64,000 bases of DNA from Psychromonas ingrahamii 37 (GTDB taxonomy: Bacteria; Pseudomonadota; Gammaproteobacteria; Enterobacterales; Psychromonadaceae). Of the stretch, positions 11,130 through 34,630 are shown piece after piece. The stretch lies in contig NC_008709.1 in the NCBI RefSeq assembly GCF_000015285.1, positions 496,001-560,000 on the forward strand, written 5' to 3'. The position numbers and the translations under genes are program-made. The first letter of the stretch is position 1. Every line of letters starts with the position of its first letter. Below the pieces are notes generated by a model. It saw only the letters and a list, made by a program, of their open reading frames with translations. It was not told the origin of the DNA and searched no databases.

Positions 11130-11214
11130 GCCCGAGTGGTGAAATTGGTAGACGCGACGGATTCAAAATCCGTTTTCGAAAGAAGTGCCGGTTCAAGTCC
11201 GGCCTCGGGCACCA
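11130..11214 (+). tRNA. leuX: tRNA-Leu (anticodon CAA)
   Basis: An 85-base class II tRNA. The acceptor stem GCCCGAG pairs with CTCGGGC, followed by A and an encoded CCA. The anticodon stem ACGGA/TCCGT holds the loop TTCAAAA with anticodon CAA, a long variable arm follows, and the T arm is GCCGGTTCAAGTCCGGC. It reads UUG codons. leuX near pepA/lptFG is a known island insertion site in enterics, and here an integrase gene follows 110 bp downstream. The 3' part (from 11159) is repeated at 34569, so integration kept the tRNA intact. Confidence 0.97.
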
Positions 11215-11220
11215 TACTTT
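11159..11220 (+). repeat. attL: 62-bp direct repeat overlapping the tRNA-Leu 3' end
   Basis: This runs from GGATTCAAAA in the anticodon arm through the CCA to ATACTTT, and is identical to 34569-34630. The two copies diverge immediately after (TTCC here, AATT there). This is the standard footprint of a tyrosine-integrase insertion into a tRNA gene. Confidence 0.95.
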
Positions 11221-11294: not shown

Positions 11295-11314
11295 TTTGGC
11301 GTAATTTGGCGTAA
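11295..11314 (+). promoter_or_regulatory. Paired TTTGGCGTAA motif, island left end
   Basis: Two perfect tandem copies of TTTGGCGTAA end about 10 bp before the integrase start. A near-identical pair lies at 34456-34476 by the right att site. Likely arm-type binding sites for the integrase or its directionality factor, possibly also repressing int. Confidence 0.6.
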
Positions 11315-11324
11315 AGGAAAAAAA

Positions 11325-12338
11325 ATGGCAACTCTTCAAGTCCGTAAGGGCAAAAAAAGCATCACCTATCGTGTTGAATTTATGCGAGACGGTAAGCGCA
11401 TATCCAAATCATTTAAACTTAAAAAAGAGGCTCAAACATTCATGGCATTATTGCTGGTGGATAATGATCTCGCTAATAGTTTAACCAATCATATTTTAAC
11501 CACCTTAAACTTCTCTGATGCCGTAAAAAAACTCTTAGATCAAGATAATGGTCGAGATCCGAGTAAACACCAGCGTTTACGTTATTGGGTTTCTGTCTTT
11601 GGCAGCCTAAAGGTTGGTAAAGTCACCCGGCAACAAGTCAAAGCTGAGTTAAAGCGTTTATCTAATGACAAAGCTCCTGCCACATTAAATCGTTATAAAG
11701 CCGCTTTAGGCTCTTTATATCGTTACCTATCCGATGAGTTCGATATCGATTACAACCCGGTAAAAGGGATTCGTCAATATACAGAAAATGATGCCAGAAC
11801 GCGCTTTTTAAGTGACGAAGAGCTATCGATATTATTTGCTATGGTAAAACAATCCAAGTGGGACCAGTTGTTTCTATTGGTCTTAATGGCTATTACAACC
11901 GGGGCTAGACGTTCTGAAATGCTTACACTAGAGTGGGATGATATTAATTTTAAAACAAAAACAGCTCACCTTCCCAACACCAAGAATGGCGAACAGCGTA
12001 TTTTAACCTTAACGGGTGATGTCATTACTGAATTAATGAAATATAGGTGCATAGGTGGGTATGTTTTTCCACATCCAGATGATCCAACAATATATTTCCG
12101 TAATTTTGATATCCACTGGCAAAGTGCCTTAAGGGAAGGGGAGATCACTGATTTTAGATTTCATGACTTACGCCATACCTGTGCCAGCCTTTTAGCGATG
12201 AACGGCGCTAGTTTGCTTGAAATAGCACAAGTGCTCGGGCATAAATCGATAACAATGACCCAAAGATACAGCCACCTTTGTATCGAACATAAAGCAAAAC
12301 TAACTGATAGAGTATTTGGAGGAATAATTAATGGGTGA
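11325..12338 (+). CDS. Tyrosine-type site-specific integrase (Int1)
   Basis: Recombinase that would insert and excise the island at tRNA-Leu. The start at 11325 has AAAGGA 6 bp upstream; an earlier in-frame start at 11247 lies in the att flank and is unlikely. About 337 aa: an N-terminal arm-binding domain, a SAM-like core-binding domain (about residues 60-150) and a catalytic domain. Catalytic residues appear complete: Arg in TGARRSE (about 194), Lys in PNTKNGEQR, HDLRHT (about 280), LGHKS and Tyr in TQRYSH (about 313). Its stop overlaps the next gene by 8 bp, so the two are probably translated together. Confidence 0.95.
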   Translation: MATLQVRKGKKSITYRVEFMRDGKRISKSFKLKKEAQTFMALLLVDNDLANSLTNHILTTLNFSDAVKKLLDQDNGRDPSKHQRLRYWVSVFGSLKVGKVTRQQVKAELKRLSNDKAPATLNRYKAALGSLYRYLSDEFDIDYNPVKGIRQYTENDARTRFLSDEELSILFAMVKQSKWDQLFLLVLMAITTGARRSEMLTLEWDDINFKTKTAHLPNTKNGEQRILTLTGDVITELMKYRCIGGYVFPHPDDPTIYFRNFDIHWQSALREGEITDFRFHDLRHTCASLLAMNGASLLEIAQVLGHKSITMTQRYSHLCIEHKAKLTDRVFGGIING

Positions 12339-13032
12339 TGTAAAATATTCAAAAATTAAAAATGGTAAAGATGGGTTATATGAACTTGATTTTAATGAAT
12401 TAACGGAAGATTTGATCAACAATTTTGAAAATGATAGTCAATCTGAAATTAATATCCTAAAGAAAATGGCAACAGAAAGCCCCGAGGTTTTAAAAAATAG
12501 CAAACCGGGATCTCCCTGGGCAGCTATATTTATCCAATTGGTAAAATTTGATATTAGTACAAAGATTATTAACTTATACGAATACCAAGGCTATCACTAT
12601 TCTCTTGCAAACTATTTAAAAGTGAGGGGGAACGTCGAAGAAAATATGGAACTGATCATAACAGGCCAATTGGTTCATATAGCTTTAGCAATTGGTCATC
12701 ATAAACTTTCACAAAATTTTGAAGCTGCCTTGGAGGCATCTGAGTTATTGTTTGGTTGTGGCATGCTTATCGGAAATGCTTTGAATGAAAAATACACTGT
12801 AGCGGGGTTCGGGCGGTACGGAGAACGCGAAGATGAAGGGCAGGCTGTAGAGAGGCGAGAAAAGCTGAATAAAATAGTCACCTTTGTTACTCCAATAATT
12901 AAAAATAATCCTAGCATTCACATGACAACACTAAGCGATAAAATCTTAAAAAATAAGATTGTTTATCAGTCCCCTAGTGTAGTTTACGATTACTTAAAAC
13001 AGCTTAAGAAAGACGGGGAAATTTATAATTAA
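12331..13032 (+). CDS. Hypothetical protein, cotranscribed with Int1
   Basis: I do not recognise this 233-aa protein. It is soluble and charged, with a hydrophobic, helix-rich middle (about residues 108-150) and a C-terminal segment, VVYDYLKQLKKDGEIYN, that looks like the end of a winged helix. It overlaps the integrase gene by 8 bp and is closed by a strong terminator. That position suggests a partner or accessory of the integrase, such as a directionality or regulatory factor, but this is inferred from context only. Confidence 0.7.
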   Translation: MGDVKYSKIKNGKDGLYELDFNELTEDLINNFENDSQSEINILKKMATESPEVLKNSKPGSPWAAIFIQLVKFDISTKIINLYEYQGYHYSLANYLKVRGNVEENMELIITGQLVHIALAIGHHKLSQNFEAALEASELLFGCGMLIGNALNEKYTVAGFGRYGEREDEGQAVERREKLNKIVTFVTPIIKNNPSIHMTTLSDKILKNKIVYQSPSVVYDYLKQLKKDGEIYN

Positions 13033-13061
13033 CTAATAAAGTAAACCCATTTACAAATATT

Positions 13062-13094
13062 AAAACCACCAAAGAAATTTGGTGGTTTTTTTTT
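13062..13094 (+). terminator. Rho-independent terminator after Int1 operon
   Basis: Perfect stem AAAACCACCAAA / TTTGGTGGTTTT with a GAAA tetraloop, followed by a T run. The T run leads into the first copy of the tandem duplication. Confidence 0.92.
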
Positions 13095-13120
13095 GCCTGT
13101 AACTTTTATAACGAGTTTAA

Positions 13121-13136
13121 CGTGATCTTGATCACG
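13121..13136. promoter_or_regulatory. CRP-like palindrome, copy 1
   Basis: CGTGATCTTGATCACG has perfect 7-bp arms around TT. It matches the CRP/FNR-type consensus TGTGATCTAGATCACA at most positions. It could equally be the operator of the island's own repressor. Confidence 0.55.
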
Positions 13137-13287
13137 CTCCTATCTGTTCGATGGGGGAGATACAACGGGTACCCCGCCGAAACTCAAGTAGTGTCTAGTG
13201 CATTCGATGCAACCGAATTATAGGCAACAAAACCATGACTGAACTAAAAACGTGAGATATAGCTTCAACTAAATAAAAGGATTAAAA

Positions 13288-13371
13288 ATGAATCATATGG
13301 ATACACCGACCAACTGCAAGCAAAAAATTAGTGGTTTTTTGTCTGTAACTTTCACAATGACTTTAATGTGA
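13288..13371 (+). pseudogene. Truncated duplicate start of the 13536 gene
   Basis: An ATG with the same AAAGGATTAAAA leader opens a frame that matches the first dozen codons of the gene at 13536 (MNHMDTPTNCKQ versus MNHFDTPANCKQ). It then reads into the second repeat copy and stops after 27 codons. It is a by-product of the tandem duplication and could act as a short leader peptide. Confidence 0.7.
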
Positions 13372-13382
13372 TCTTGATCACG
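13367..13382. promoter_or_regulatory. CRP-like palindrome, copy 2
   Basis: TGTGATCTTGATCACG, preceded by AA and followed by CT. It is one base closer to the CRP consensus than copy 1, and about 155 bp before the regulator start at 13536. Confidence 0.55.
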
Positions 13383-13535
13383 CTACCCTCAGTTCGATGG
13401 GGGAGATACAACGGGTACCCCACCGAAACTCAAGTAGTGTCTAGTGCATTCGATGCAACCGAATTATAGGCAACAAAACCATGACTGAACTAAAAACGCG
13501 AAAAATAGCTTCAACTAAATATGAAAGGATTAAAA

Positions 13536-13814
13536 ATGAATCATTTTGATACACCAGCCAACTGCAAACAAGAAATGAAAGCTGATCAAAACTTTAATTT
13601 CTATATGACTGATCTGGAGAACTGGCAACCCATGAAAAAAGTTGCTGAGGTTTTTCCTCAATTCACTCAACAGCAACTAAAACGTTTATTTTGGCAACGG
13701 AAAAAGCATCCAGGTTTATCGACTTGCTATAGGCAAGTTGGTAAACGCGGCTATGTTTGTTTGCCATTATTTGGCCTTTGGCTAGCAGGTCAATTGCCTG
13801 AACAAAGGAGTTAA
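13536..13814 (+). CDS. Small putative DNA-binding regulator (AlpA/excisionase-like position)
   Basis: A 92-aa basic protein. The start at 13536 was chosen because AAAGGA sits 6 bp upstream and the duplicated copy keeps the same ATG; an ATG at 13521 overlaps that ribosome site. The segment MKKVAEVFPQFTQQQLKRLFWQ resembles a helix-turn-helix. The gene lies in the regulatory zone between integrase and primase, where satellites carry an AlpA-type activator or excisionase. It is followed after 2 bp by the 13817 gene, so the two are coupled. The family assignment is a guess from size and context. Confidence 0.6.
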   Translation: MNHFDTPANCKQEMKADQNFNFYMTDLENWQPMKKVAEVFPQFTQQQLKRLFWQRKKHPGLSTCYRQVGKRGYVCLPLFGLWLAGQLPEQRS

Positions 13815-13816
13815 AA

Positions 13817-14254
13817 ATGAAACATCTAAATAACACTAATACGGCATTTAATGTAGAAAAGTCGGCTTTACGGTTAATTGTTGCGCTTATCAATGAACAA
13901 CAAGAGATGGGAAATTTGGTCCAGAAGGTAGTTGAAAATGATTCAATTTCACTATTTTCAGGGCTTACTCCTCCTGATTGTTGTAGCCAGTTAAACGGGG
14001 TTAATACCCAACAAGTCAATGCTTGGTTTGTTGAGAAAAATATTTTAATGAAAGTTGAGCGAGGTCATAAAGTGAAGGGTCATGCGCGAGATAAATATTT
14101 AAGGCAGAAATGCGATAAAAGCAAAGATGGGCTTCCTTATTATTACTCAATTTTAACCGTAAAAGGTGCTAAATATTTATATAAAGCTTACCTTGAAAAC
14201 CGCTTACCCATGAAAAAAGACTGGGATGGACTTTTTACTTATATCGAATGTTAG
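13817..14254 (+). CDS. Hypothetical protein, possibly antirepressor KilA-C-like
   Basis: A 145-aa protein with a good AAAGGAG ribosome site. The pattern VNAWFVEKNIL, then basic residues, then YSILTVKGAKYLYK resembles the C-terminal DNA-binding domain of phage antirepressors (new phrase, lysine-rich loop, then LT.KG..W). The match is only by eye. It is the second gene of the small regulatory operon ahead of the replication genes. If correct, it would relieve repression of the element. Confidence 0.5.
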   Translation: MKHLNNTNTAFNVEKSALRLIVALINEQQEMGNLVQKVVENDSISLFSGLTPPDCCSQLNGVNTQQVNAWFVEKNILMKVERGHKVKGHARDKYLRQKCDKSKDGLPYYYSILTVKGAKYLYKAYLENRLPMKKDWDGLFTYIEC

Positions 14255-14369
14255 GAGCAATGGAAAGTTAAATATGGCAATGCGGCATAAAAAAATTGCT
14301 GAATTTTTCGAATCAACGGACAGAACAACCGTCATATGCCTACTAATAATGGGGGCTGAAGTTACTTGA

Positions 14370-14387
14370 GGCGTAAACGTGGCGTAA
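14370..14387 (+). promoter_or_regulatory. Paired GGCGTAA motif, internal copy B
   Basis: GGCGTAAACGTGGCGTAA. The same 18 bases occur in reverse orientation at 23773-23790, and related TTTGGCGTAA pairs lie at both island ends. This may be the remnant end of a second element or an extra recombinase/excisionase site. Confidence 0.6.
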
Positions 14388-14482
14388 TTTTTTTCAAAAA
14401 GGAGGAAATATAATGGTTTTTACGGAAAAGGGGAGGTGGATGACACGAGATAATTTATTAAACAAAAGCGTTAAAAATAAAC

Positions 14483-14554
14483 GTGCTTAGCAAAAGCTAA
14501 GCACATCACTTAACCACTGGTAGTTCGGCCTCGCCAAAGTTCAAACTACCAGTG
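14483..14554 (+). other. Two adjacent hairpins upstream of the primase-like gene
   Basis: Hairpin 1: GTGCTTAGC (14483-14491), AAAA loop, GCTAAGCAC (14496-14504). Hairpin 2: CACTGGTAGTT (14515-14525) pairs with AACTACCAGTG (14544-14554) around an 18-base loop. Hairpin 1 could terminate the regulatory operon, although it lacks a T run. Both could belong to a replication origin or a leader RNA. The interval 14255-14573 contains no other convincing gene. Confidence 0.6.
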
Positions 14555-14573
14555 CCTATAGGATACAACATTT

Positions 14574-15599
14574 ATGTTGAAATTTCTTTATGCATCATTA
14601 GTTACAATGACAAATAATTTTAATTACTTAGATTGGGCTGAGTTGACTGGCTTAATTAAGAACCCTCCACAGGCATCCTCTTTTTCTTTAAAAGAGATAA
14701 AAGCCCGCTGTGCAGTTATTGCTGCTCATGATGCAACAGATAAAACTAAGCAGACGGTTATGCTGCACAATAATTTCACCTTACTTCGCTTAGATTTAGA
14801 TGACAGCCCATTTGATATCGCTGCGATCAAAGACTTATTGGACCAAGTGGATATTAAGTCATATATCGTCCATACAACTGCTAGTCACATGCAAGATGGT
14901 TGCAGCCATCGCTACCGTATCTACATAGAGTTAGTTGCGGCATTATCATTTGATATTTGGTCTTTGCTGGAAAAATATCTGTGTCATTTTTTTTCTGCCG
15001 ATGACTGTTCAACAAGGCCGCAGCAAATCATGTATCTGCCCAGCTTATTCCCGGGTGTTATTTACGACAGCTATATCTCGGAGGGAAACGCTTTACAGGT
15101 TAATGGATCGTTACTGCTCGAGCAAGCCGTGACTTTTAACAATATTTTAATGACTGATTATGCGCCAGTTGTTGAAGTTAAAAAGAAAAAGGTATTACCG
15201 CAATACTGCGAGTCATTAATAGCAGGGCAAGTGTCTATCATTGATTTGGTGAACCAGTCCTATACATGGGATTACGTGCTTGCACAGTATGGCTATAAAC
15301 AACAAGGTCGCAGTTACTTGCCTCCAGAGTCAAAAAGCAAAATGGCAGGCGTGCATTTACTTAAAGGGAATGATGGCCAACTCCGCTATTACTCTCACCA
15401 CGCTAGTGATCCTTGTGCGACAGGAAAGTGCCTCGATATTTTTGAGTTTATTGTTGTGCGTGAATTTAATGGTGATGCGAAGAGGGCGGTAAAAGCCTTA
15501 TCTAGCGCTTTTCCTGAACATAATAAGCACAACCTAAAGCTGTATTTGAATGATCAACAACAGAAGCAAATTCAAGTTGTGATGGGGGACTTGAAATGA
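14574..15599 (+). CDS. Primase-like replication protein (AEP / RepB-type)
   Basis: A 341-aa protein. RLDLDD at about residue 83 and HRYRIYIEL at about residue 115 resemble the metal-binding and catalytic motifs of archaeo-eukaryotic-type primases found in phages and satellites. A C-terminal part with PPESKSKMAGVHLLKG and ATGKCLDIFEF resembles the small domain fused to such primases. It overlaps the next gene by 4 bp (ATGA), so primase and helicase-like proteins would be made together. The start at 14574 has only a distant AGGAT; MTNN at 14610 is an alternative. It would replicate the excised element. Confidence 0.65.
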   Translation: MLKFLYASLVTMTNNFNYLDWAELTGLIKNPPQASSFSLKEIKARCAVIAAHDATDKTKQTVMLHNNFTLLRLDLDDSPFDIAAIKDLLDQVDIKSYIVHTTASHMQDGCSHRYRIYIELVAALSFDIWSLLEKYLCHFFSADDCSTRPQQIMYLPSLFPGVIYDSYISEGNALQVNGSLLLEQAVTFNNILMTDYAPVVEVKKKKVLPQYCESLIAGQVSIIDLVNQSYTWDYVLAQYGYKQQGRSYLPPESKSKMAGVHLLKGNDGQLRYYSHHASDPCATGKCLDIFEFIVVREFNGDAKRAVKALSSAFPEHNKHNLKLYLNDQQQKQIQVVMGDLK

Positions 15600-16891
15600 G
15601 ACATTTACCTGAACCTAATCAGCCCTCAAATATCGACGGTGAATTGGAAAATGAAACATTAATTGATCGATTCCCTCATTTTAAGTTAAACAATAAGAGG
15701 GAGAAATATTTACTCAATACCGGCCCAAACCTTTCCGTGTTGCTTGACTATACTGGCATTAAAGCGGCAATCAATAAGATGACCTATGAGCCTGAGCTAA
15801 GTGTAAAGGGGAAAGCTTTTCCATCTGTGGAGGCGGCTAGAAGTTGTCTCATTACTAATGCGGCGATCATCGCCTTACCCAAAGTGGCCATTGATGATCA
15901 TTTAGTTGCACTGGCGGAGAAAAATAGTTATCACCCTATTGCTGAATTACTCAATGCAGGGCAATGGGATGGCAATGAACGAGTTGAACTGGTATTAGCC
16001 TGTCTCAATGCCAAAGACCCGGAATTTGCCATTGCCATTATGAAAAAGTGGCTTGTCGGATGCGTCGCATCTCTATATGAGAAAACATTTTCAAGTAAAT
16101 TGGTGCCGGTATTACAGGGCGATCAATCCTATATGAAAACAGCGTTCATTAGCCGAATTGCTAACATTATCGAAGGGGCCTTTTTAGAAGGAGCTGAGCT
16201 CAATCCTGATAATAAAGACAGTGTGCTCTCCTGTATAAAGTCATGGATTGTTGAATTAGGCGAGTTAGAGCGGACCAGTAAAAATAGTCAAGGAAGCCTG
16301 AAGGCTTTTATTACCAAGCCAATTGACACTATTAGGCCTCCTTATGCTCGAGGTGATATTAAAAAACCAAGACAGACGCATTTTATTGCCACAGTGAATA
16401 AAACTGACTTCCTCAAAGATGAAACCGGAAGTAGCCGATATGCTGTCATTGAGTTAACCGGTGCTGTGGATATCGACGCTACAAACAGCTTACTTGGTTA
16501 TGAGTATAACAACGGCTCGAAGCAGGTTCATCCTGAGTTGCTTTTACAGTTTTGGCTAGAAATAAAAGCAATGTATGAGGCTAATTATGGTTGGATGTTA
16601 AGTAAAGATGAGCTTAGCTTAGCTGCAAAAGTGGCAGATAAATATACTGATAAAGGGAACTGGTATGAAATGCTCAGCGATCATATTGCCAGGGCAAAAG
16701 GCGCTGAAGCTAAAATGACAGCGACTGAGATATGTAACTACTTGGGAGTTAATACCGCTCAAATTAAATGGGTAGGTAAAGCATTAACTCAGCTCGTTAA
16801 AGAGGGTCTTATTAAAAAAGGAAGAACCGGCCAGGGAAGGTACTATTTATTCCCCACTTGTTGTAGCGAAGGTTGTCCTAGTTGTAAGTAA
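15596..16891 (+). CDS. VapE/VirE-family replication ATPase-like protein
   Basis: A 431-aa protein. Residues about 105-300 follow the VirE/VapE pattern: WDGNER, LVPVLQGDQSYMKTAF at the P-loop position (about 171-184), WIVELGELERTSK (about 216), LKAFIT, DTIRPPYARG, PRQTHFIATVNKTDFLKD and GSSRYAVIEL. These superfamily-3-type ATPases pair with primases in satellites and islands. The P-loop is degenerate: GDQSYMKT keeps Lys-Thr but has lost two glycines. The C-terminus has a winged-helix-like end (YLGVNTAQIKWVGKAL...KKGRTGQGRYY) and a cysteine cluster. It is followed by a terminator. Confidence 0.8.
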   Translation: MRHLPEPNQPSNIDGELENETLIDRFPHFKLNNKREKYLLNTGPNLSVLLDYTGIKAAINKMTYEPELSVKGKAFPSVEAARSCLITNAAIIALPKVAIDDHLVALAEKNSYHPIAELLNAGQWDGNERVELVLACLNAKDPEFAIAIMKKWLVGCVASLYEKTFSSKLVPVLQGDQSYMKTAFISRIANIIEGAFLEGAELNPDNKDSVLSCIKSWIVELGELERTSKNSQGSLKAFITKPIDTIRPPYARGDIKKPRQTHFIATVNKTDFLKDETGSSRYAVIELTGAVDIDATNSLLGYEYNNGSKQVHPELLLQFWLEIKAMYEANYGWMLSKDELSLAAKVADKYTDKGNWYEMLSDHIARAKGAEAKMTATEICNYLGVNTAQIKWVGKALTQLVKEGLIKKGRTGQGRYYLFPTCCSEGCPSCK

Positions 16892-16899
16892 CCCGTTTT

Positions 16900-16926
16900 A
16901 AAAGGCCTTTGAGTAGGCCTTTTTTA
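16900..16926 (+). terminator. Rho-independent terminator after the replication genes
   Basis: AAAAGGCCT, six-base loop, AGGCCTTTTTT. It ends the primase/VapE transcript. Confidence 0.9.
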
Positions 16927-16962
16927 CATTCTATTATTAAAATATCAAAGGTTAAGATGTTA

Positions 16963-17166
16963 ATGTCATGATGTCATTGGTTAGTTAAAAGAAGTGAAAC
17001 CAATGGGTTACCTAAGTGACATTATTTTGCGTTACGTCATTAATGATTAACTTAATGTCATTAAAAAAACGAGTGACGTAAAATCAGATGTTGTCATGGG
17101 AATAGTCCTTTCAATGCATTGTTATATAAGGCTTTCTATCACAATGACAAGATGACATGACATTCA
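16963..17166. repeat. Iteron-like cluster of ATGTCAT / ATGACAT motifs
   Basis: About ten copies of ATGTCAT or close variants, on both strands, within 200 bp. Examples are 16963-16969, 16971-16977, 17016-17022, 17034-17040, 17054-17060, 17091-17097 and a cluster at 17143-17166. The cluster directly follows the replication genes and precedes the second integrase. A cluster of short repeats next to a rep gene is the usual look of a satellite or plasmid origin. The 434-bp gap 16892-17325 holds nothing else apparent besides the terminator. Confidence 0.6.
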
Positions 17167-17325
17167 TTAACTTAGCAGAAGTGGTGCTATTAGGCATAAG
17201 GAAATCGATACCATTGTTTACGCATTTCATTTGCCAGTAACGATTTAAAATCATACAACCAACTACAATTAGTTATAAAAAAAAGGTATAATTAAGCTCT
17301 GTTTGCAGCATTTTAAGGGCTTAGA

Positions 17326-18534
17326 ATGACAACTAAAGTGATAAAGTTTTCTGCTGCGGCGTTAAAGTCTGCAGAGCAAGACATTGCATTTAACGAGTTC
17401 CGTGATGCGCGTTATCCGCTTCGTTTGCGCTTGCATAAATGCAGAAGTAAGGGCAGCTGGTATTTAGTTAGATCGACTCATGGCAAATCAAAACATGAAA
17501 AAATCGGCAGCTATCCGAACATTAAATTAAAAGATATTTTAGCTAATTTAAGCCGCAATTTAATTGCTGATACTGCGGAGCCAGAAAGTGAATTTCAAAC
17601 CCTTGGACAGCTTTTAAAATGGTATTTGGCACGTACTGAACAGAACAGCCAAATCACAAAACAGCGTAAAACGACTATACGTTGGGCGATCACCCGGCAT
17701 CTATTACCCTTAATTGACGAATTACCGCTAAATCAGATCACTTACGCTGCATTAGATAAACATTTCTTTCAGCCGATACAGCAAAAATACGCAATGACCA
17801 CGGCGAAAAACATTTGGATTATTTTAAAGCAGTCCGTTGCTCAAGCGGTAAAGCTAGTTCTGATTAAGCCTGATCCCATATCATCGTTCGAGTTTAGTGA
17901 TTTTATTAAGGTAGGTAAAACCGCCGAGCGTCCGGGACTTAAATATTACCAGGTCGCAAAGCTCTTTATTGATGCACAAGCTGCCAGTGTTCCCGCCCGC
18001 GCCTTAGTTGCAATTATGCTACTGCATGGCACGCGACTAGGTGAAACAAGGCAAACAAAATGGAGTGATATCTGTTTTAAAACGGATCTTTGGTCAATAC
18101 CCGGCCCGATCACTAAAACCCGCACAGAATTAAATCTGCCTATCACTCCATTAGTTAAAAAAATCCTTACTGATTATAGAAACTGGCAGGAACAGAACGG
18201 CTATACCGGCGTGTTTGTATTCCCAGCACCCAAAGGCCGTAGTGCTATTTCAGCCTATGCAGCCAATGAACTGATACAAGAGGTCAGTCTCAATAACTGG
18301 ACCAGCCATCAACTGCGTAAGTTCGCACGCACCACGTGGGTTGATTTAAAAATCGATTTCCTGATAGCAGAGCTATTGTTAAATCATAAACTAACCAAGG
18401 TGACTGCCGCTTATATACATACCGATGCAGTAGAGGCTAAGAGCGAAGCGCTAACCGTTTACCATGTCTGGTTAGCCGCTGAGTTTTCTGCACTAAATGA
18501 CATAATAAATGATGCTATCCCGGCGCGACCGTAA
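17326..18534 (+). CDS. Second tyrosine-type integrase (Int2, P4-like)
   Basis: A 402-aa recombinase, unrelated in detail to Int1. Catalytic residues visible: Arg in LHGTRLGET (about 235), SHQLRKFART (about 327), LLNHK and Tyr in TAAYIHT (about 361). The N-terminal part (SKGSWYLVRSTHGKS...KIGSYPNI) matches the arm-binding domain of P4-type integrases. No second pair of att repeats was found, so it may be left from another element or serve a composite. It is followed 154 bp later by the TerS-like gene. Confidence 0.92.
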   Translation: MTTKVIKFSAAALKSAEQDIAFNEFRDARYPLRLRLHKCRSKGSWYLVRSTHGKSKHEKIGSYPNIKLKDILANLSRNLIADTAEPESEFQTLGQLLKWYLARTEQNSQITKQRKTTIRWAITRHLLPLIDELPLNQITYAALDKHFFQPIQQKYAMTTAKNIWIILKQSVAQAVKLVLIKPDPISSFEFSDFIKVGKTAERPGLKYYQVAKLFIDAQAASVPARALVAIMLLHGTRLGETRQTKWSDICFKTDLWSIPGPITKTRTELNLPITPLVKKILTDYRNWQEQNGYTGVFVFPAPKGRSAISAYAANELIQEVSLNNWTSHQLRKFARTTWVDLKIDFLIAELLLNHKLTKVTAAYIHTDAVEAKSEALTVYHVWLAAEFSALNDIINDAIPARP

Positions 18535-18688
18535 TTAAACCCCCATTACTTTAACTGATTACATATCATAGTGTTATAGCGTTATCGCTATTAGTCACGT
18601 AAGACAATAGTCATCAATTATTTTAACAAACCTGCTTTGATAACCAGTAAAAACGAACTAATATGAGTAAAAATAAGGAGGAAGGCTC

Positions 18689-19459
18689 ATGGCGACAGAT
18701 TGGGACGTCTTAAATCAGCAATTTATAAAAGAAAATTTACGCACTGAGATCTCAGTAAAAGCCTGGTGCGAAAAGAAAAAATTGAATTACGCGACAGCAC
18801 GTCGACATATAAAACCAAGTGCGCACGTTGCGCAGCCATCAGTGCGTAAAGTGCGCAGTGCTGAACAGACTGAAAATCCTCGGAAACCTGACCTTCCAAA
18901 TACAGATAATAAACAAATTCAATCAGTTAAAGAAATTCATGAAGATGAAGTTATGCACAATGACTCAGAGAAAAGGTCGGCCTCAAAGAAACGAGTTTTG
19001 TCGCTGGGGAATCAAAATGCGCGCACATTTGGTCATTACAGTGAATTTATTACCACGGATGAAGATGCGCTGCGGTATTCTTCCGCTTCAATGGCATCAC
19101 TACGCGATGAGCTTTGTTTAATACGTATGCAGCTATCAAATTTAATGGTTGCCATTAAACAAACCGAAGCAGATCTAAATGGTGATATAACGGTTGAACA
19201 GAAGATTAGTTTGAATAACACCTATGACAAGTTTCAAACTAACGCTAACGTCAAAGTCGCGCGTATCGAGTCATTAGAGATCTCATTGGTTGGCCTGGAA
19301 AAAACGAAAGCTGATACAGAAAGAAGTATTGTGCTAACCCGCAAGGCACAATTGGAAGCTGATAAATTAAGTCGTGAATCGGGCGGCAGCGAAACCCCAC
19401 TCAGTAAAATATATGATGAGATTTTGGCGATGGGCAGTGACGGTATGCTGAATCACTAA
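18689..19459 (+). CDS. Putative small terminase subunit-like protein (TerS)
   Basis: A 256-aa protein with a strong AAGGAGG ribosome site. The N-terminus (ISVKAWCEKKKLNYATARRHIK, about residues 20-41) is a helix-turn-helix with the wording seen in small terminases. The middle has GNQNARTFGHYSEF, resembling the GN.NA..HG.YS motif before the oligomerisation region, and the rest is long helices. Small terminases select DNA for packaging; satellites carry their own to redirect helper phage heads. No large terminase is present, as expected of a satellite. The call rests on motif resemblance, not alignment. Confidence 0.5.
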   Translation: MATDWDVLNQQFIKENLRTEISVKAWCEKKKLNYATARRHIKPSAHVAQPSVRKVRSAEQTENPRKPDLPNTDNKQIQSVKEIHEDEVMHNDSEKRSASKKRVLSLGNQNARTFGHYSEFITTDEDALRYSSASMASLRDELCLIRMQLSNLMVAIKQTEADLNGDITVEQKISLNNTYDKFQTNANVKVARIESLEISLVGLEKTKADTERSIVLTRKAQLEADKLSRESGGSETPLSKIYDEILAMGSDGMLNH

Positions 19460-20309
19460 TGGCTAAAAATTAGAGTCGGCAAGCATCCTGACACGGCAAG
19501 CATCACTATAACCAACAGCTATCCTGTTACGTTCCCTTATAAAATCTATTTTCAGGGCTTTGGGGCATAAAAGCGACTTAGAATTTTGAACTAATTATTT
19601 ATTGAGATGACCCCGTTGACGCACGTATTTCTCCCAGTAGCGAGCAAAATAAAAGCTCCTTACAGCAAGTCGATTTGAACCTTCATGCACTGCTTGAAAG
19701 ATTTCGCTAAGTCGCTTTCGCCCCCTTAGCGACTTATAAAACTAAAAATAAATGCCCCAATTCACTTAGCCATGACTATGTTCGATTTCGGGAAAAAGCG
19801 AACGTCGGGATTCGGTGCTAAAAAAAACTTATGCAGCGAAGATCTGCTGTATAGGTTTGTGGTGAGTCCATTATACAATTTTTTTGTCTGGCTGCTCTTT
19901 CCAAATTTTCACAAAATTCCTGCCCAATAATCACCTAAATATAGCTTAATACAGTGCTATTTAGACCAGACCTGACCCTAAAATTCATTGTGAGTAAACA
20001 AAAATAAGAGAATTTTCTTAGTCATTTTTCTGATCTAATTGGCAAAAGAAACACCCCAATTCATGTTCAACCAATAGCAGATATTAATGAATAAAAAATC
20101 GTCAGTTACCAAACAAAGCTAACAAAACTTTACATAATACTAAATGGAAAAATTCAGAAGTCGAAACTATAATCTCATAAATTGATAATATTGGTTGCGG
20201 AGCAAGTTCATTTCTAGACCTTCTCAGGCAATCAAACATAATAACTCGAACAAGAAAAATCACCAGACGCATTAGGATATTGGGACGTTAGGCGAAAAGG
20301 AATAAATAA
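19460..20309. other. 850-bp gap with repeat copy and possible methyltransferase scrap
   Basis: No intact gene seen. An inverted copy of the dispersed repeat lies at about 19630-19735, flanked by roughly complementary GGGGCATAAA and AAATGCCCC stretches (19564 and 19750 regions). On the plus strand near 20186-20225, ATTGGTTGCGGAGCAAGT reads IGCGAS followed by SFLDLL. This recalls the SAM-binding motif of class I methyltransferases, but frames around it are broken. A GTTAGGC lies at 20288, just before the next gene. Confidence 0.45.
19630..19735 (-). repeat. Dispersed repeat copy 1 (inverted)
   Basis: The reverse complement reads GCGAAAGCGACTTAGCGAAA, then TCAAGCAGTGCATGAA and CAAATCGACTT, matching the copies at 22277-22365 and 34070-34172. 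One frame gives GESDLAKSFKQCMKVQIDL in all copies with few changes, so it looks like the tail of a decayed coding sequence. Confidence 0.7.
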
Positions 20310-20822
20310 ATGAATAACAAAATAGATAATAAATACACACGCATTAATCTGCCACCAATAATAAAAAATAATCCGGTTTTATTCACGCAAAGCCTAGAGA
20401 TCAATAATCGGGTTGCATATCATATAATGCTAACACGTCGAAGGTCAGCTATTTATCATTGGCTTCACAGGATATTGGCATGGGGTGTGCCTATTTTATC
20501 TGCTTTTGTTACAGTCCTTTCAAGCGGGAATTTAGAAAGTGATTTCACTAAGGAAAGTGAAATCATTAATGTTGTATTTTACCTAAGTGCGGTAATGACA
20601 ATACTTACTAGTATATATTCAACCGTACAGCCTTACGAAAGGAGAATACGTGCTATAAAATACGCGAATAAACTCTGGCATTTTCATACCGAGTTCCCTT
20701 TAGGCATGGAAAAATTAGGGAAGAGTATTAGTGATGAAACCAATGTTATAAAAGCATGTACGAAGTATCTTTGTGAAAAAAATGACGAGTTAACAATAAT
20801 AATTAATGATTTCAATGGTTGA
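20310..20822 (+). CDS. SLATT/DUF4231-like two-helix membrane protein
   Basis: A 170-aa protein with an AAGGAA site 8 bp upstream. A basic amphipathic N-terminal part (LTRRRSAIYHWLHR) precedes two membrane helices (about residues 52-68 and 88-108), then a helical cytoplasmic tail with YERRIRAIKYANKLWHFHTE. This is the layout of SLATT proteins, proposed pore-forming effectors in nucleotide-signalling immunity and abortive infection. No CD-NTase, SLOG or reverse transcriptase partner is adjacent. It could act alone or with the unknown minus-strand neighbours. The family call is by eye. Confidence 0.55.
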   Translation: MNNKIDNKYTRINLPPIIKNNPVLFTQSLEINNRVAYHIMLTRRRSAIYHWLHRILAWGVPILSAFVTVLSSGNLESDFTKESEIINVVFYLSAVMTILTSIYSTVQPYERRIRAIKYANKLWHFHTEFPLGMEKLGKSISDETNVIKACTKYLCEKNDELTIIINDFNG

Positions 20823-21845: not shown

Positions 21846-22276
21846 TCATTCACTTCCTTTTATAGAGATACAATATACTGTTGACGCTCTAGTATCGTCC
21901 AGTGTTGACACGCTAGCAGCGTATTAGTGTATTAGTGTGCATTCTAACTAATACCTATTTAAAATTTTATTGATTATCAAAGATTAGACCTTAACAAGCA
22001 TAAAAACAGCTAGATTGCATATATAATTGATCGTAAATTGACTTTCTATATTAGGGAAATGATGCATTTTTATTTATAAAGATCTCTATAAATGCAAACT
22101 GAAAAAAATTAATGTTTTATTTTCAATAAGCTAAACTATTAAGCATCTGCATCAAGTGTTCATTTAATATGCAATAAAAATGGTCAAATTCCCTAAGTGT
22201 GAATAGGATCGCGTCTTGCTTTTTAGTTGGCTACAAATTTGTAGGTTTGTAAGCCGTTATGGAGACGAAAGCACCT

Positions 22277-22365
22277 TAGCGAAATCGTTCAAGCAGTACA
22301 TGAACATTCAAATCGACTTTGCAGGCAAGGGACTTTGATTTTGCTTTTGGAAGAAAACGATCGTA
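22277..22365 (+). repeat. Dispersed repeat copy 2
   Basis: Matches CGAAAGCACCTTAGCGAAAT, TTCAAGCAGTACATGAACAT and CAAATCGACTTTGCAGGCAA against the copies at 19630 (inverted) and 34070. The frame reads DESTLAKSFKQYMNIQIDFA and then stops. It lies in the 640-bp gene-free stretch 21846-22485, which otherwise shows only AT-rich sequence and a terminator. Confidence 0.75.
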
Positions 22366-22402
22366 AATGGGGTAGTATAAACAGATTAATAGAGCAAAAA
22401 CT

Positions 22403-22433
22403 CTAAGGCGCTATGTGCCCCTTTGCGCCTTAG
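22403..22433 (-). terminator. Terminator after the 22486-23268 gene
   Basis: CTAAGGCGC and GCGCCTTAG form a perfect 9-bp stem with a 13-base loop. On the minus strand the stem is followed by AGTTTTTGCT, giving a modest T run downstream of the minus-strand gene. Confidence 0.7.
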
Positions 22434-23268: not shown

Positions 23269-24182
23269 ATCTTTCGCCTTTTTAGTATGGATAATTTACA
23301 AAGACTCAAAGTTAACTTCTGATTTTATTGAGCAATCTAGTGTTATGGCTAAATTATTTTGACCACTAATTTAGAGTAAATCAGTAATAATTTCTAGCTC
23401 GGTTTGTGCCCCATAGCGCCTCAGCGGGTGAAAATTTACATGCTCGATTTTTCCCGCCAGTGAGCGTTAATAGCTCACGCTAAAATCATCCCCAAAGAGA
23501 ATAAAATCGAAGTTCCTTCTCAATGAAATCGATCCTAATGGTCCTTCCAGGTTGATGCGGAGTTTGAAAATAAGTGACTGGCAATGAACTAATCATAGCG
23601 TTATTTAAAAAGCTATTTACGAAGTAGTCGTCGGCATATATCAAACGCATAAAAATCACTGTATCCACTATAAAGCGATTTATTTTTCGCTAAAAATGAC
23701 ATCGTTTCAAATCAATATCAGCCTCCGTAATTACTCTCTTTTAGTCTAATATTTCGATGTTATTAAGTCGTTTTACGCCACGTTTACGCCTAAAGGGGCG
23801 GGAGCCTTTGTAAGTAGGGGGCTGGTGTCGGATATTTTATCCGTAGTATTGCTAAATAGGGCATTTCCCGTTTGCTTATAAACATCCTTAATTAGCCACT
23901 AACTTTACTGAGGGTCAGACGAGGTGATTTATGCCACTCATAATTATTATTGCACCAGAAATATAAGGTGTTTTCTGCCTTTCTACAGAAATTGGTGCTT
24001 ATGTCATAAGATGATTTTCAATTAGCGTGACACTAGAGTAAGGTCACGGCAAAATCACAAAATAGTCAGCTAAGTATTTGTATGTAAATCAATCTACCTA
24101 TAAAAGATTGTTAGCTGAAGTTTTTCACAGTACGTCTCCCTAGGCTGGGGATATTTAAAGTAATCAATTTTTTGAGGTAAGG
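23269..24182. other. 914-bp gap with repeat fragments
   Basis: No convincing gene. A short minus-strand frame (23486-23668) contains IRIDFIEKELRFYSLWG, which resembles the IQIDFAGK.LYF frame of the dispersed repeat, so this may be a diverged fourth copy. The paired GGCGTAA motif lies in inverse orientation at 23773-23790. The rest is AT-rich upstream sequence of the lipase-like gene. Confidence 0.5.
23773..23790 (-). promoter_or_regulatory. Paired GGCGTAA motif, internal copy C (inverted)
   Basis: The reverse complement reads GGCGTAAACGTGGCGTAA, identical to 14370-14387; a preceding A extends the identity to 19 bases. Copies B and C face each other across about 9.4 kb. Confidence 0.6.
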
Positions 24183-28282: not shown

Positions 28283-29062
28283 TTATGGAGTATGGCAGCC
28301 AGGCGCAATGAACTGACGCGCACGCTCAGTCTGTGGATTATTAAAGAAGACCTCAGGAGGAGAAACCTCTCGGATCAACCCTCTATCCATAAATACTATG
28401 CTATCAGCCACATCACTGGCAAAATTCATCTCATGTGTTACCACAACCATCGTCATACCGTCTTTAGCCAGCTCTCGCATTACACTCAATACCTCGTTCA
28501 CCATTTCAGGATCCAAGGCGCTGGTTGGCTCATCAAATAGCAGTACTTTTGGCTCCATCGCCAAGGCTCGGCTAATCGCTACTCGTTGTTTTTGCCCCCC
28601 AGAAAGTGTATGGGGGTAGACGTGGAGCTTATCTTCTAAGCCCACACGTTTTAATAGTGTTTTTCCCATCTGCTCTGCCTCAATCTTAGAGCGTCCCAAC
28701 ACATTGATCGGTGCTATCGTTACATTTTCTAATACCGTTAAATGAGGCCAAAGAGCAAAATGCTGAAACACCATACAGATATTAGTTCTCACTTTATTTA
28801 GCGCTCGACTACTTGCCCTCTTCCCATTAGCTTTTTTGCTACTTTGGCCAATGACTACACCGTCAATCCTTATTTCTCCACTGCTGGGATGTTCCAACCA
28901 GTTTAAACAGCGTAAAAATGTTGATTTTCCCGAACCACTAGGACCAAGAATGCAGGTTGTCGTACCCGAGAGGATATCAATATTGATATCCCTGAGCACT
29001 TCTACGCCGTCGAAGTCTTTATTGAGGTTTTTTACCGAAATGACAATAGATTGATCATCCAT
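28283..29062 (-). CDS. Polar amino acid ABC transporter, ATP-binding protein
   Basis: A 259-aa ATPase of the GlnQ/HisP type. Walker [10 protein letters not shown] (about residue 40), signature LSGGQKQR (about 150), Walker [14 protein letters not shown], and a switch His in VVVTHEM. It powers uptake of a polar amino acid or related compound through the two permeases upstream. It overlaps the preceding permease gene by 8 bp and is the last gene of the six-gene minus-strand operon. Confidence 0.93.
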
Positions 29063-29708
29063 AACAACGTTTCCTTACATTAGATATACTTGCAACCCCC
29101 CTCTCAACCACTAAAGTTATCAGCGTATAAAGCGCAACAGCGACAACAAAAGGTAGAAAGGGGATAAAGTGATTAACACTAATAAAATTCGCAGCGAAAG
29201 TGAGTTCCTGAACAGTAATAATCATAAGCAGGGCACTGTCGCGCATTGCTGTAATGATCTGATTGCCAACCAATGGAGCTGATATCAGCACAATTTGAGG
29301 AAAAATAACGTGCCTGTATTTTTGCAATGACGAAAAACCATAGGCATCCGCTGCTTCTACGTCGGCACGACTGATAGCTTTATAAGCCGTGACGAATATT
29401 TCTACGAAGTAAGCCATATTATACAGAACCAGTGTAACAATCCCTGATTCCCAAGGGCTCAGGCGCACTCCCAAAGAAGGTAAACCGTAGTACATCACAT
29501 AGGCTAGCAATAAAAATGGCACGCAACGTAGTAGGTCAAAAAATTCTTGGAAAATTTTACGCCATCCGGGAGATTCAATGACTACGATTGCGGCTAAAGC
29601 TCCCAGAGGGATGCTCAGAGCCATGCTAATCAGAACCAGATACAAGGTATTCATTAGTCCAGAAGAAATCAGCTCTCGAGCTTCCCAAATAATCTGCCAC
29701 TGGTCCAT
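29055..29708 (-). CDS. Polar amino acid ABC transporter permease (second)
   Basis: A 217-aa HisM/GlnP-type permease with about five membrane helices. The EAA loop is visible as [25 protein letters not shown] couples it to the previous permease gene, with GGAGG just upstream. The two different permeases probably form a heterodimer in the inner membrane. Confidence 0.9.
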
Positions 29709-30358
29709 TATTTACCTCCTTTGTACTTTTTCGTCATTTTTTTCTCAAGTAAACGCTGACTTTTTACGATTATGACAACAAACAAGGTATAAAGAATCAT
29801 TGCCATAAGGAAGGGGGGTAAAGGGTCATAGGTTTGTGCACCAATACGACTTGCTGCACGAGTAATTTCCACAACACCGATAACCGCAACGGCTGGTGTT
29901 CCCTTTATAAGAATAGTGATCTCGCTGGTTAAGGGGCCAAGGTTGGCCCGCCATAATTGGGGGAAAATAATCAGCCAAAAGGTTTTAATACGACTCATAC
30001 CATAAGCTTCTGCAGCTTCAAGCTGCTCTGAAGAGAAATTATCCAAAGCGGCTCGCCATATTTCACTGCTGAATGCAGTCAAATTCAGCGTGAGTACTAA
30101 GATTGCTGCTGGGATAGGATTCATATCAATGCCAATTTCAGGTAGACCAAAGAAAACAAACAGGGCCAAAGTCACAAAAGGGGTTGACCTGATTAACGTG
30201 ACATATACAGCCAATAAACCATTAAGTACTGCGATCTTCTGCCAGCGGAAAACACCAAAAAGCAGTCCTAGCGGTAGGCTTAATAGTATAGCGGCTAGAG
30301 ATAGGGAAACAGTTACCCCTGCTCCCCCAATTAAAGTCAACCATGCAGACCAATCCAT
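29708..30358 (-). CDS. Polar amino acid ABC transporter permease (first)
   Basis: A 216-aa HisQ-type permease with about five membrane helices and an EAA loop EQLEAAEAYGMSRIKTFWLI. It overlaps the next permease by one base and follows the binding-protein gene after 45 bp. It pairs with the 29055 permease. Confidence 0.9.
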   Translation of the reverse strand: MDWSAWLTLIGGAGVTVSLSLAAILLSLPLGLLFGVFRWQKIAVLNGLLAVYVTLIRSTPFVTLALFVFFGLPEIGIDMNPIPAAILVLTLNLTAFSSEIWRAALDNFSSEQLEAAEAYGMSRIKTFWLIIFPQLWRANLGPLTSEITILIKGTPAVAVIGVVEITRAASRIGAQTYDPLPPFLMAMILYTLFVVIIVKSQRLLEKKMTKKYKGGK

Positions 30359-30403
30359 AGTGGAACCCTTTTTATCAATGAATTACTGACGACAGAATTA
30401 GAA

Positions 30404-31234
30404 TTAATTAATCGTCGATGTCGGCATTCCCTCAAAAGAACGTCCTAGCCACTTTTTTTGCAATTGGTACAGTTGCCCATTTTTCCTGATTTCAGCCATA
30501 AAAGAATTTAAATAATTGAGCAAATCTTTATTGCCTTTGTCCACGGCCCACGCCGCATAAGCAGGCACACCAACAGCTTGCCCGATCTTGAACAGATCCG
30601 GTTTTTCCTGAGTAAGGCTCGTTAGGTTGACGACACCGTTAATTACATAGTCTAAACGCCCCAATACCAAGTCTTGGTATGCATCTGGCAAGGATGTATA
30701 CTGAATAGTGTTCCCCAACTTACCGCCACTTATTGCGAGTTTATTTTCCAGTTCACTTAAGGCGGCGTAAGAGGCGCCGCCAGTCTGAACGCCCACAGTC
30801 AGCTCATCTAAATCACTGACCACCTTGATGCGCTCTTCATCTGCACGAATCACATAGTATTGAGTGGCTTCTGCAATCGGCATGGTAAAGTCTAAACTTT
30901 GTAAACGCGTTGGTGTCACTACTGCTGCCGTTAAAGCGACATCATATTTACCGGTGGACAGCCCTGCTAAAAGGCCTGTCCAGGGAATAATCTGCTGCTT
31001 AATTTCGAATGGCGCTTTTGCACGCAACAGAGCTAGCAACGCATGATTAAGCCCTTTGGGTGTCCCGTTTTCTACGTATTCAAATGGCTTATAGCTATCT
31101 TCTGTCGCCACAACCATCACACCTTTAGCTTGGATTTCCTCTAATGAAGCAGCCTGAGATGAAAAACTAAATAGAGTCGAACATGACAATATGAATGCTC
31201 CCCCAGTGATTTTTAAGATTTTGTTTAATATCAT
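30404..31234 (-). CDS. Periplasmic amino-acid-type substrate-binding protein
   Basis: A 276-aa SBP_bac_3-family protein. The signal peptide (about residues 1-28) ends SSQAA; then GVMVVATEDSYKPFEYVENG, the usual first strand and binding segment, and a hinge region with LTVGVQTGGASYAAL. It captures a small polar amine or amino acid for the downstream permeases. Its place after ridA and an amidase suggests a nitrogen-containing catabolic substrate. Confidence 0.92.
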   Translation of the reverse strand: MILNKILKITGGAFILSCSTLFSFSSQAASLEEIQAKGVMVVATEDSYKPFEYVENGTPKGLNHALLALLRAKAPFEIKQQIIPWTGLLAGLSTGKYDVALTAAVVTPTRLQSLDFTMPIAEATQYYVIRADEERIKVVSDLDELTVGVQTGGASYAALSELENKLAISGGKLGNTIQYTSLPDAYQDLVLGRLDYVINGVVNLTSLTQEKPDLFKIGQAVGVPAYAAWAVDKGNKDLLNYLNSFMAEIRKNGQLYQLQKKWLGRSFEGMPTSTIN

Positions 31235-31277
31235 AATTAATTCCTCTATGTTTTCTTACAGTAAAAATTCAAACCCA

Positions 31278-31709
31278 TTAACGACACGCAATCAAATCAA
31301 TTTCTACAAGAGCATCATAAGCCAAGCCTGTCGTACCAATACAGGTTCGTGCTGGCAGGCGATGCTCTGGAAAATAGCTTCGATAAGTATCATTAAAGGC
31401 TTGATAGTCTCGTTTAAACTCCTTCAAAAATACGCGCACTGACACAATATTCTCCAATCCTAAATCAAGCGCCTTTAATATGATGTTGAGATTATTCATT
31501 ACATTGTCCGTTTGTGCCTCAACCCCTTCAGGAAGTACACCTGGATTTGTTGGCGTATCAGGCATTTGCCCTGTGACAAAGATAGTTTCACCCACTTCAA
31601 CTGCATGGCTAAATGGTGCTACTGGTTTCGGGCCCGCTTCAATCAGATGAAAGATGGGGGACACTTTGTTTTTTGGTTCTTGCATATCTGCATTCTTATT
31701 TGATTTCAT
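31278..31709 (-). CDS. RidA-family (YjgF) deaminase-like protein
   Basis: A 143-aa RidA-fold protein. Family cores visible: APFSHAVEVGETIFVTGQMP, then a helix with LKALDLGLENIVSVRVFL, and the C-terminal LPARTCIGTTGLAYDALVEI with the expected Arg before the last strand. RidA proteins hydrolyse reactive enamines/imines or act in specific catabolic routes. The start at 31709 has AGGA 9 bp upstream; an internal Met at 31685 is possible. Between the amidase and the binding-protein gene. Confidence 0.88.
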   Translation of the reverse strand: MKSNKNADMQEPKNKVSPIFHLIEAGPKPVAPFSHAVEVGETIFVTGQMPDTPTNPGVLPEGVEAQTDNVMNNLNIILKALDLGLENIVSVRVFLKEFKRDYQAFNDTYRSYFPEHRLPARTCIGTTGLAYDALVEIDLIACR

Positions 31710-31756
31710 CTGTATGGATCCTATAAGCTAGAAAGATTAAAAAAGTTTTAGATTAC

Positions 31757-32983: not shown

Positions 32984-33138
32984 AATTACTATCCGGTAAT
33001 AAACAATATGACTAGTTAACCAATTAATTGCGATGCTGTATGCTGTTGGTTTTGCAGTTACGTGGTGCATATTTTGCATCACATGGATAAGTGTTCAATG
33101 GAGCAATTATCCAAACTTTTACTAATGGAAGAATATAA

Positions 33139-34031: not shown

Positions 34032-34069
34032 TATTGTAAAATACGATGAGTCCATATACAGTTTTGGGG

Positions 34070-34172
34070 GTGAAAGCGCCTTAGCTAAATCCTTCAAGAA
34101 GAGCATGATCATTCAAATCGATTTTACCGGTAAGAACTTTTATTTTGTTCGTTATTTGGAGAAGCGAGCGTA
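34070..34172 (+). repeat. Dispersed repeat copy 3
   Basis: Matches the copies at 19630 (inverted) and 22277: GTGAAAGCGCCTTAGCTAAA, TCAAGAAGAGCATGATCATT, CAAATCGATTTTACCGGTAA. The longest reading frame of the three is here: GESALAKSFKKSMIIQIDFT through FYFVRYLEKRA and a stop. The 34032-34568 gap has no other gene apart from this and the att-proximal motif. Confidence 0.75.
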
Positions 34173-34455
34173 AATAAATGAACTAATCTCAACAGATAAA
34201 TGGTAACAATTTCTAAGCCTTTGTACTCCGACACGTCTTAGACTGTGAAAATTTAAGCTATTATAATGTACGCTATTAGATGAGCTTTAATTCTTTTCGA
34301 GAGTCGTGTGCGATTTTTATAAACTCTTCAAGCCCACTTATTCCGTGAAGCGAGCAATCTAGTGAGGATGCCAACTCTAATATAATACTGACGTTAAAGT
34401 GTGTATAAAATCCAAATCTATCATTGATCGTTGAGACGATTAAATAGTTTTATTT

Positions 34456-34476
34456 TTTGGCGTAAATTTGGCGTAA
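34456..34476 (+). promoter_or_regulatory. Paired TTTGGCGTAA motif, island right end
   Basis: Two TTTGGCGTAA copies separated by one A, about 93 bp inside the right att site. They mirror the pair at 11295-11314 beside the left att site, as expected for integrase arm sites. Confidence 0.6.
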
Positions 34477-34568: not shown

Positions 34569-34630
34569 GGATTCAAAATCCGTTTTCGAAAGAAGTGCCG
34601 GTTCAAGTCCGGCCTCGGGCACCATACTTT
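34569..34630 (+). repeat. attR: second copy of the 62-bp tRNA-Leu repeat
   Basis: Identical to 11159-11220 (the tRNA-Leu 3' part plus ATACTTT). The 5' half of a tRNA is missing here, so this is the leftover attachment site and not a second tRNA gene. It marks the island's right boundary. Confidence 0.95.

Follow-up and report, generated by a model that had tools for sequence, protein, structure and literature searches.

A probable TerS-type phage satellite core in a 23.4-kb tRNA-Leu island of Psychromonas ingrahamii 37

Staphylococcal pathogenicity islands (SaPIs) carry a VapE-type helicase, packaging based on a terminase small subunit (TerS), a Stl repressor and capsid-remodelling genes, and their TerS redirects packaging into the shells of a helper phage. 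A locus with part of this gene content lies in a 64,000-nucleotide stretch of the chromosome of Psychromonas ingrahamii 37 (the window; positions 496,001 to 560,000 of the single 4,559,598-base contig NC_008709.1), where positions 11325–19459 probably represent a phage satellite core of the TerS type, set in a 23.4-kb island at a tRNA-Leu gene. The likeness to SaPIs consists of the VapE-type helicase and TerS, whereas a Stl repressor and capsid-remodelling genes were not seen in the window element. The closest known kind is the Gram-negative phage-inducible chromosomal islands (PICIs), some of which already have TerS according to PMC6092414; an earlier note on this DNA, made from the letters alone, had considered a new satellite type, which was thus an overstatement. 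As in the PICIs described there, an integrase with attachment (att) repeats at a specific site is combined with a probable primase-replicase, TerS and accessory genes at one end. Structural, lysis and large-terminase (TerL) families had no match among the 10 proteins scanned at 11.3–21.8 kb, the remaining cargo being judged mostly from open reading frames (ORFs) and a few scans. Unlike those PICIs, which measure about 15 kb, the element has 23,410 bp between its att repeats (8.1 kb in the core), a separate VapE and a second tyrosine recombinase, and no AlpA, MerR or Stl-type regulator was matched among the 10 proteins, as the earlier note had remarked for AlpA.

PICMI, a marine satellite, is described in PMC10803314 as located at fis and needing AlpA, its prototype having no detected terS homologue. 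It shares with the window element an int, a further gene that overlaps the int end and, probably, a primase, but the window element is located at tRNA-Leu, has TerS and VapE, and has no AlpA match. The episomal Vibrio satellites cf-PISP and PISP, reported in 2026, are plasmids with plasmid maintenance and capsid genes (PMC13230959), unlike the window element with its att sites and integrase. The same paper gives TG54 a "distinct tyrosine recombinase" and no integrase, and TG93 a small terminase. Apart from the integrase, the Pfam families listed for P4-like satellites (psu, delta, sid, alpA, epsilon, alpha; PMC8628076, the custom sid profile being left out) were not matched in the 10 proteins, nor were capsid genes or TerL; capsid-forming PICIs carry capsid genes of their own together with terminases. 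In literature that mostly excluded subscription journals and preprints, neither a satellite with an end integrase and a second such recombinase nor any satellite from Psychromonas was found in print, and the one report on two integrases that came up concerns alternative PLE integrase types.

The island is bounded by two exact copies of a 62-bp repeat of the 3′ part of tRNA-Leu. The element is therefore larger than the core outlined in the earlier note: the core forms its left third, and the right part is cargo. The island ends and the sites around them, some of them shared with another Psychromonas genome (G022), are as follows.

11130–11214, forward strand: tRNA-Leu (CAA), target gene of the island (ARAGORN)
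11159–11220, forward strand: attL, 62-bp repeat of the tRNA-Leu 3′ part (exact repeat)
11298–11314, forward strand: GGCGTAA doublet by attL, candidate Int1 arm site (word count in window)
11325–12338, forward strand: int1, tyrosine integrase adjoining tRNA-Leu (PF00589, 3e-29)
14370–14387, forward strand: internal GGCGTAA doublet, with a similar position in G022
23773–23790, reverse strand: second internal GGCGTAA doublet
34459–34476, forward strand: GGCGTAA doublet by attR, found also by attR of G022
34569–34630, forward strand: attR, second copy of the 62-bp repeat (exact repeat)

The four doublets in the window compare with an expectation of 0.01, and each att copy has one at most about 100 bp away on the island side. 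An int1 homologue (82% identical) is found at the same tRNA in G022, whose island has a doublet next to each att end and a further one internally. In G021, of the same genus, sequence matching the right flank directly follows tRNA-Leu; its history is not simple, since an attR-like end is also present on another contig. This anatomy can be read as that of an island inserted and excised by Int1 through the 62-bp att repeats. The core between attL and the cargo contains eight genes, all of them intact open frames without internal stops, and those named in the earlier note were confirmed at their positions. Following int1, its features are listed below.

12331–13032, forward strand: gene of no assigned family, overlapping the int1 end (ORF; profile matches near chance only)
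13089–13521, forward strand: two copies of a 187-nt unit (13089–13275 and 13335–13521; 93% identity), upstream of the regulator-like gene
13521–13814, forward strand: small regulator-like gene (97 aa), named from position only (no profile match)
13817–14254, forward strand: antirepressor KilAC-like gene (phrog_63, 6e-11; Pfam ANT only 0.07)
14574–15599, forward strand: primase-like gene, probably an archaeo-eukaryotic primase (phrog_256, 2.4e-8; phrog_9765 "DNA primase", 5.5e-5)
15596–16891, forward strand: VapE-type helicase (PF05272, 1.3e-45; PDB 7pds_A, 1.1e-22)
16963–17163, no strand: TGAC/GTCA cluster, weak candidate origin (word count against shuffles)
17326–18534, forward strand: int2, tyrosine recombinase of a replication-linked clade (PF00589, 2.8e-14; tree)
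18590–18608, reverse strand: 19-nt motif downstream of int2-like genes in the window, G020 (L105) and G003 (L106), a weak lead
18689–19459, forward strand: TerS (phrog_370, 1.2e-31, residues 3–255 of 256; no Pfam match)

The profile searches bore out the satellite-like core first described in the earlier note: VapE and TerS are present, the primase is probable, and no structural genes were found. The last gene belongs to a terminase small subunit family, the profile covering the whole protein, and so passes the refuting test that the earlier note had set for it. Its full-length phage relatives are 27–30% identical, include Stx phages and Aeromonas phage phiARM81mr, and have TerL annotated adjacent; the kind of TerL located beside distant relatives (L047) is called the L047 type below. 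Four intact TerS copies occur in the P. ingrahamii genome and one in G022, the others being 48–56% identical to that of the window; the three further copies of the genome, the 62-bp att repeats and the 187-nt duplication are additions to the earlier note. To judge from where an integrase adjoins an RNA gene, the four regions of this genome are at tRNA-Leu (the window), tRNA-Thr, tmRNA (TerS 18 kb off) and tRNA-Val (TerS 22 kb off). In the sequence examined, a second att copy was found only for the tRNA-Leu and tRNA-Val regions, the latter as an 88% repeat over 52 nt; locus L085 showed no att repeat in the range examined.

The partners of TerS differ from region to region. They are the KilAC-like gene, the primase and VapE in the window; AlpA and a YagK-type Rep directly before TerS in locus L006 of the same genome; in the tRNA-Val region (L008), Rha, a Toprim primase and AAA_25, all close to TerS; and a YagK Rep 13 kb from TerS in the tmRNA region (L078/L007), which also has an HTH_17 match below cutoff. 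AlpA, YagK Rep and TerS stand together in G022. In L006 and in L023 of G022, DNA likeness to the window's TerS extends from 18 nt before the ATG to within 6 nt of the stop codon; in L007 and L008 it starts 2 nt before the ATG and breaks off 81 nt short of the stop codon. Across the order, TerS matches were found in 20 of 394 genomes, 17 of them outside Psychromonas, and eight of these 17 have an L047-type TerL in a flank of about 1.5 kb (one with a stop-broken TerS frame). The pairing of YagK Rep with TerS is not restricted to Psychromonas, since it is also seen in G209, one of the non-Psychromonas genomes without this TerL in the flank, where the Rep lies 93 nt upstream. A TerS pattern search in genome contigs gave 85 stretches with none confirmed, and near records may be left out of it. 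In the loci examined around the related TerS copies of P. ingrahamii and G022, no L047-type TerL was matched.

As TerS relatives occur in intact phages, the region could alternatively be a defective prophage stripped of its structural genes, with TerS and the primase as leftovers. This is very improbable: related TerS genes, none with a matching TerL, appear again and again in company with three kinds of replication genes, and an island in Colwellia with the same replication genes (below) forms a complete unit of 7.0 kb flanked by identical repeats. The presence of related TerS in four regions of one genome suggests that the helpers exploited by the islands share one kind of terminase, and, as the replication genes beside them differ, this genome lends itself to testing whether the choice of helper depends on TerS alone. 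Two of these regions contain further gene sets: in L078/L007 (about 1939–1958 kb of the genome), the genes at the tmRNA end are separated from TerS by a set of cas genes that by eye is of type I-E, and a type III restriction enzyme (L008 11102–14134; PADLOC, 1099 bits) is located near TerS in the tRNA-Val region.

In the replication module, the identity of VapE is solid, and its PDB match 7pds bears the title "Similar to D. nodosus vapE". The upstream gene is probably an archaeo-eukaryotic primase, judging from its phrog matches and from residues D74, D76, H105 and E119, which resemble the DxD, SxH and D/E motifs of this family and are invariant in three aligned sequences. The profile searches proposed in the earlier note thus confirmed VapE and TerS and gave weaker matches for the primase. 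The primase and VapE frames overlap by ATGA and match positions 72–312 and 447–715 of phrog_256, respectively, as if one primase-helicase had been divided into two pieces. The iteron-like cluster that the earlier note placed behind vapE is suggestive only. TGAC/GTCA, a word picked after looking, has 10 occurrences in 434 nt, where 500 dinucleotide shuffles gave 2.4 on average and 8 at most, and the commonest 6-, 7- and 8-mers (7, 5 and 3 copies) do not exceed the shuffle maxima (8, 6 and 4).

Relatives of the primase at 1e-10 were found in four of the 394 genomes, including P. ingrahamii and G021, and in Colwellia sp. C1TZA3. The Colwellia locus (L086), the clearest of these, is an island of 7.0 kb, with identical 41-bp repeats at tRNA-Met that are 6,987 bp apart; between them are int, three small genes, the primase (43%), VapE, a GP3_package gene (PF16677, 5.4e-8), taken as its TerS, and one further gene. 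G254 has a fused primase-helicase with an integrase, tRNA-Arg and a phrog_309 TerS (1e-34). No TerS was seen in G021 and G289, in which the contig ends shortly after the primase or VapE. A TerS is thus present in three of the five primase loci, of three kinds by best profile, that of Colwellia also touching phrog_309 weakly (0.009). A primase pattern search in viral contigs yielded 80 stretches, none of which was confirmed. Since related TerS are accompanied by differing replication genes, and the same primase–VapE pair by other TerS, the window element can be considered a modular TerS-type satellite.

The presence of two integrases, int1 at the tRNA and int2 before TerS, led the earlier note to consider a fusion of two satellites. 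In such a case an element with int1 and primase–VapE would have merged, side by side, with one carrying int2 and TerS. Relatives of int2 at 1e-40 were found in 19 of the 394 genomes, P. ingrahamii included, and none of the nine int2-like loci retrieved from other genomes had a tRNA in its flanks. Sixteen int2-like recombinases form one side of a branch (99/98), a split from end integrases that is partly by construction, since the tree members were gathered by homology (long branches were flagged); the window's copy groups with those of G020 and G003 (100/98). In half of the 16 (window, G020, G003, G018, G007, L104, SC_8 and XM1), the recombinase gene directly follows replication genes. The order in G020 is tRNA-Ser, integrase, a gene without assignment, AlpA, Toprim primase, DUF5906 helicase, int2-like gene and type I restriction genes, while G003 has AlpA, primase, helicase and the int2-like gene, with only an integrase fragment upstream. 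In the G018 prophage, the int2-like gene is flanked by a P-like loader (phrog_109) and a Q-like gene (phrog_79), and the G007 prophage resembles it, with TerS and TerL further on. The corresponding upstream gene is DnaB-like in L104 (by eye), replication protein P in SC_8 (with just eight features annotated) and an ATP-binding protein in XM1. A further integrase accompanies the int2-like gene in six of the 16 (window, G020, G018, G007 by tblastn, XM1 with 51 of 69 features examined, and Va_90-11-286_p16 with 47 of 49).

In the G020 satellite and the G018 and G007 prophages, therefore, int2 relatives follow replication genes with another integrase at the element end, and a second recombinase need not mean fusion. 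The proposed merger is further disfavoured by the DNA likeness around TerS, which begins only 2–18 nt before its ATG and leaves int2 outside the shared unit, by the absence of a tRNA-type repeat between the supposed parts, and by the Colwellia primase–VapE–TerS set, a single 7-kb unit without int2. An int2 fragment (91% DNA identity) about 5 kb from TerS in L007 and the second internal GGCGTAA site on the reverse strand at 23773 leave some room for a composite history, and a fusion is, overall, unlikely. Int2 is better regarded as a putative resolution recombinase, a testable role for an "integrase" often annotated without explanation in phages and satellites. The 19-nt motif found downstream of it, after looking, has a three-way score reached by three of 300 shuffles; the best matches in the remaining 13 int2-like loci cover 12–16 of 20 positions. 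In the G020 satellite, the type I restriction–modification genes after the int2-like gene are HsdR and HsdM by Pfam (L105 1412–5464).

The anatomy of the window element is thus that of an att-bounded island with an intact integrase, a helicase, a probable primase and a TerS without matching TerL. On helper induction, Int1 would excise the island through the att repeats, and the resulting circle would be replicated by the primase and VapE helicase, with the repeats behind vapE as a possible starting point. Int2 may act on the replicating DNA, most likely by resolving multimers in the manner of Cre or Xer. By analogy with SaPI-type biology, the satellite TerS would then bring this DNA to the large terminase of the infecting helper, so that helper shells would be filled with satellite DNA. 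Tentatively, the element could represent a marine satellite branch in which two tyrosine recombinases divide the labour, one being chromosomal and the other acting on replicating DNA to determine whether it is monomeric, multimeric or episomal when TerS-driven packaging begins, and in which the second type is common to lambdoid phages and phages with partition genes. Int2 may also connect satellites of the chromosomal kind with the episomal satellites described recently.

Several observations weigh against the interpretation of the region as a satellite core and against parts of the mechanism. AlpA, present in the sister islands of L006 and G022, is missing among the scanned proteins; no att repeat was found in the range examined for the tRNA-Thr region, the tmRNA region or the G020 satellite (L105); the primase-like gene had no Pfam or PDB match; and the evidence for the candidate origin is weak. 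L047-type TerL was found in none of 24 Psychromonas genomes, in a search run without a positive control and limited to this TerL family, and it is absent from the flank of about 1.5 kb in nine of the 17 non-Psychromonas TerS genomes. The only phrog_2 match in the P. ingrahamii genome, considered as a sign of a resident helper, was rejected, as the sequence looks like RecD. Besides the eight int2-like genes that follow replication genes, three of the 16 lie by late tail genes (G236, G177 and Va_90-11-286_p16), where they may be ordinary integrases, and five are placed elsewhere or unclearly (L109, L103, K303, H905 and 448O51-1). All 66 features of K303 and 71 of H905 were examined, and neither has another gene named integrase, although H905 has a small "recombinase"; both carry partition genes. 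An FtsK-gamma protein is found in 448O51-1 (35 of 45 features examined). The size of 23.4 kb, the metabolic cargo and a split LysR gene also count against a typical satellite and, with the internal duplication, the lack of AlpA and an int1 match that is partial or interrupted in four of the eight genomes having one, are consistent with a decayed satellite that has lost its mobility and persists as a fixed part of the chromosome carrying metabolic cargo. Such decay is possible but doubtful, given that all eight core genes are intact, both att ends match and have their doublets, and the right flank directly follows tRNA-Leu in G021. A TerS-type satellite core remains the favoured interpretation.

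Among the small genes of the left core, the one overlapping int1 has equally placed counterparts in G022 and G003, and tblastn gave no match to that of G022 at 1e-4. The 97-aa regulator-like gene has a 74% homologue within the G022 island, and the KilAC-like gene a 46% homologue in L008. The duplicated 187-nt unit ahead of the 97-aa gene has a GTGATCTTGATCAC palindrome. A regulatory RNA in this duplication was considered and dismissed: Rfam gave no match inside it at E up to 1, and a chance-level Phe_leader match (E 0.33) lies just before it. Folding z-scores are −0.9 and −1.3 for the two units and −2.9 for a longer stretch that includes the preceding hairpin.

The cargo from about 20 kb rightwards comprises a weak SLATT match, ABC transporter genes, an amidase, the split LysR gene and unassigned genes.

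20310–20822, forward strand: SLATT-like gene with two transmembrane segments, possible defence cargo (SLATT_4, 1.8e-6, below its cutoff)
28283–33082, reverse strand: ABC transporter genes and amidase (ORFs; amidase PF01425, 1.1e-57; ABC_tran, 3.5e-34)

The tRNA-Leu island of G022 (L083 and L023; about 363–414 kb) encloses Mu-like and tail-like phage genes by eye, and a hammerhead type II ribozyme match (L023 4119–4193, 54 bits) is located in a seemingly Mu-like prophage of the same genome. A dispersed repeat of about 100–190 nt, with copies 74–90% alike, is found at 19562–19749, 22237–22421 and 34061–34175 of the window and also in L006, L007 and L024; it sits near TerS and the island ends, and by eye resembles a miniature inverted-repeat transposable element.

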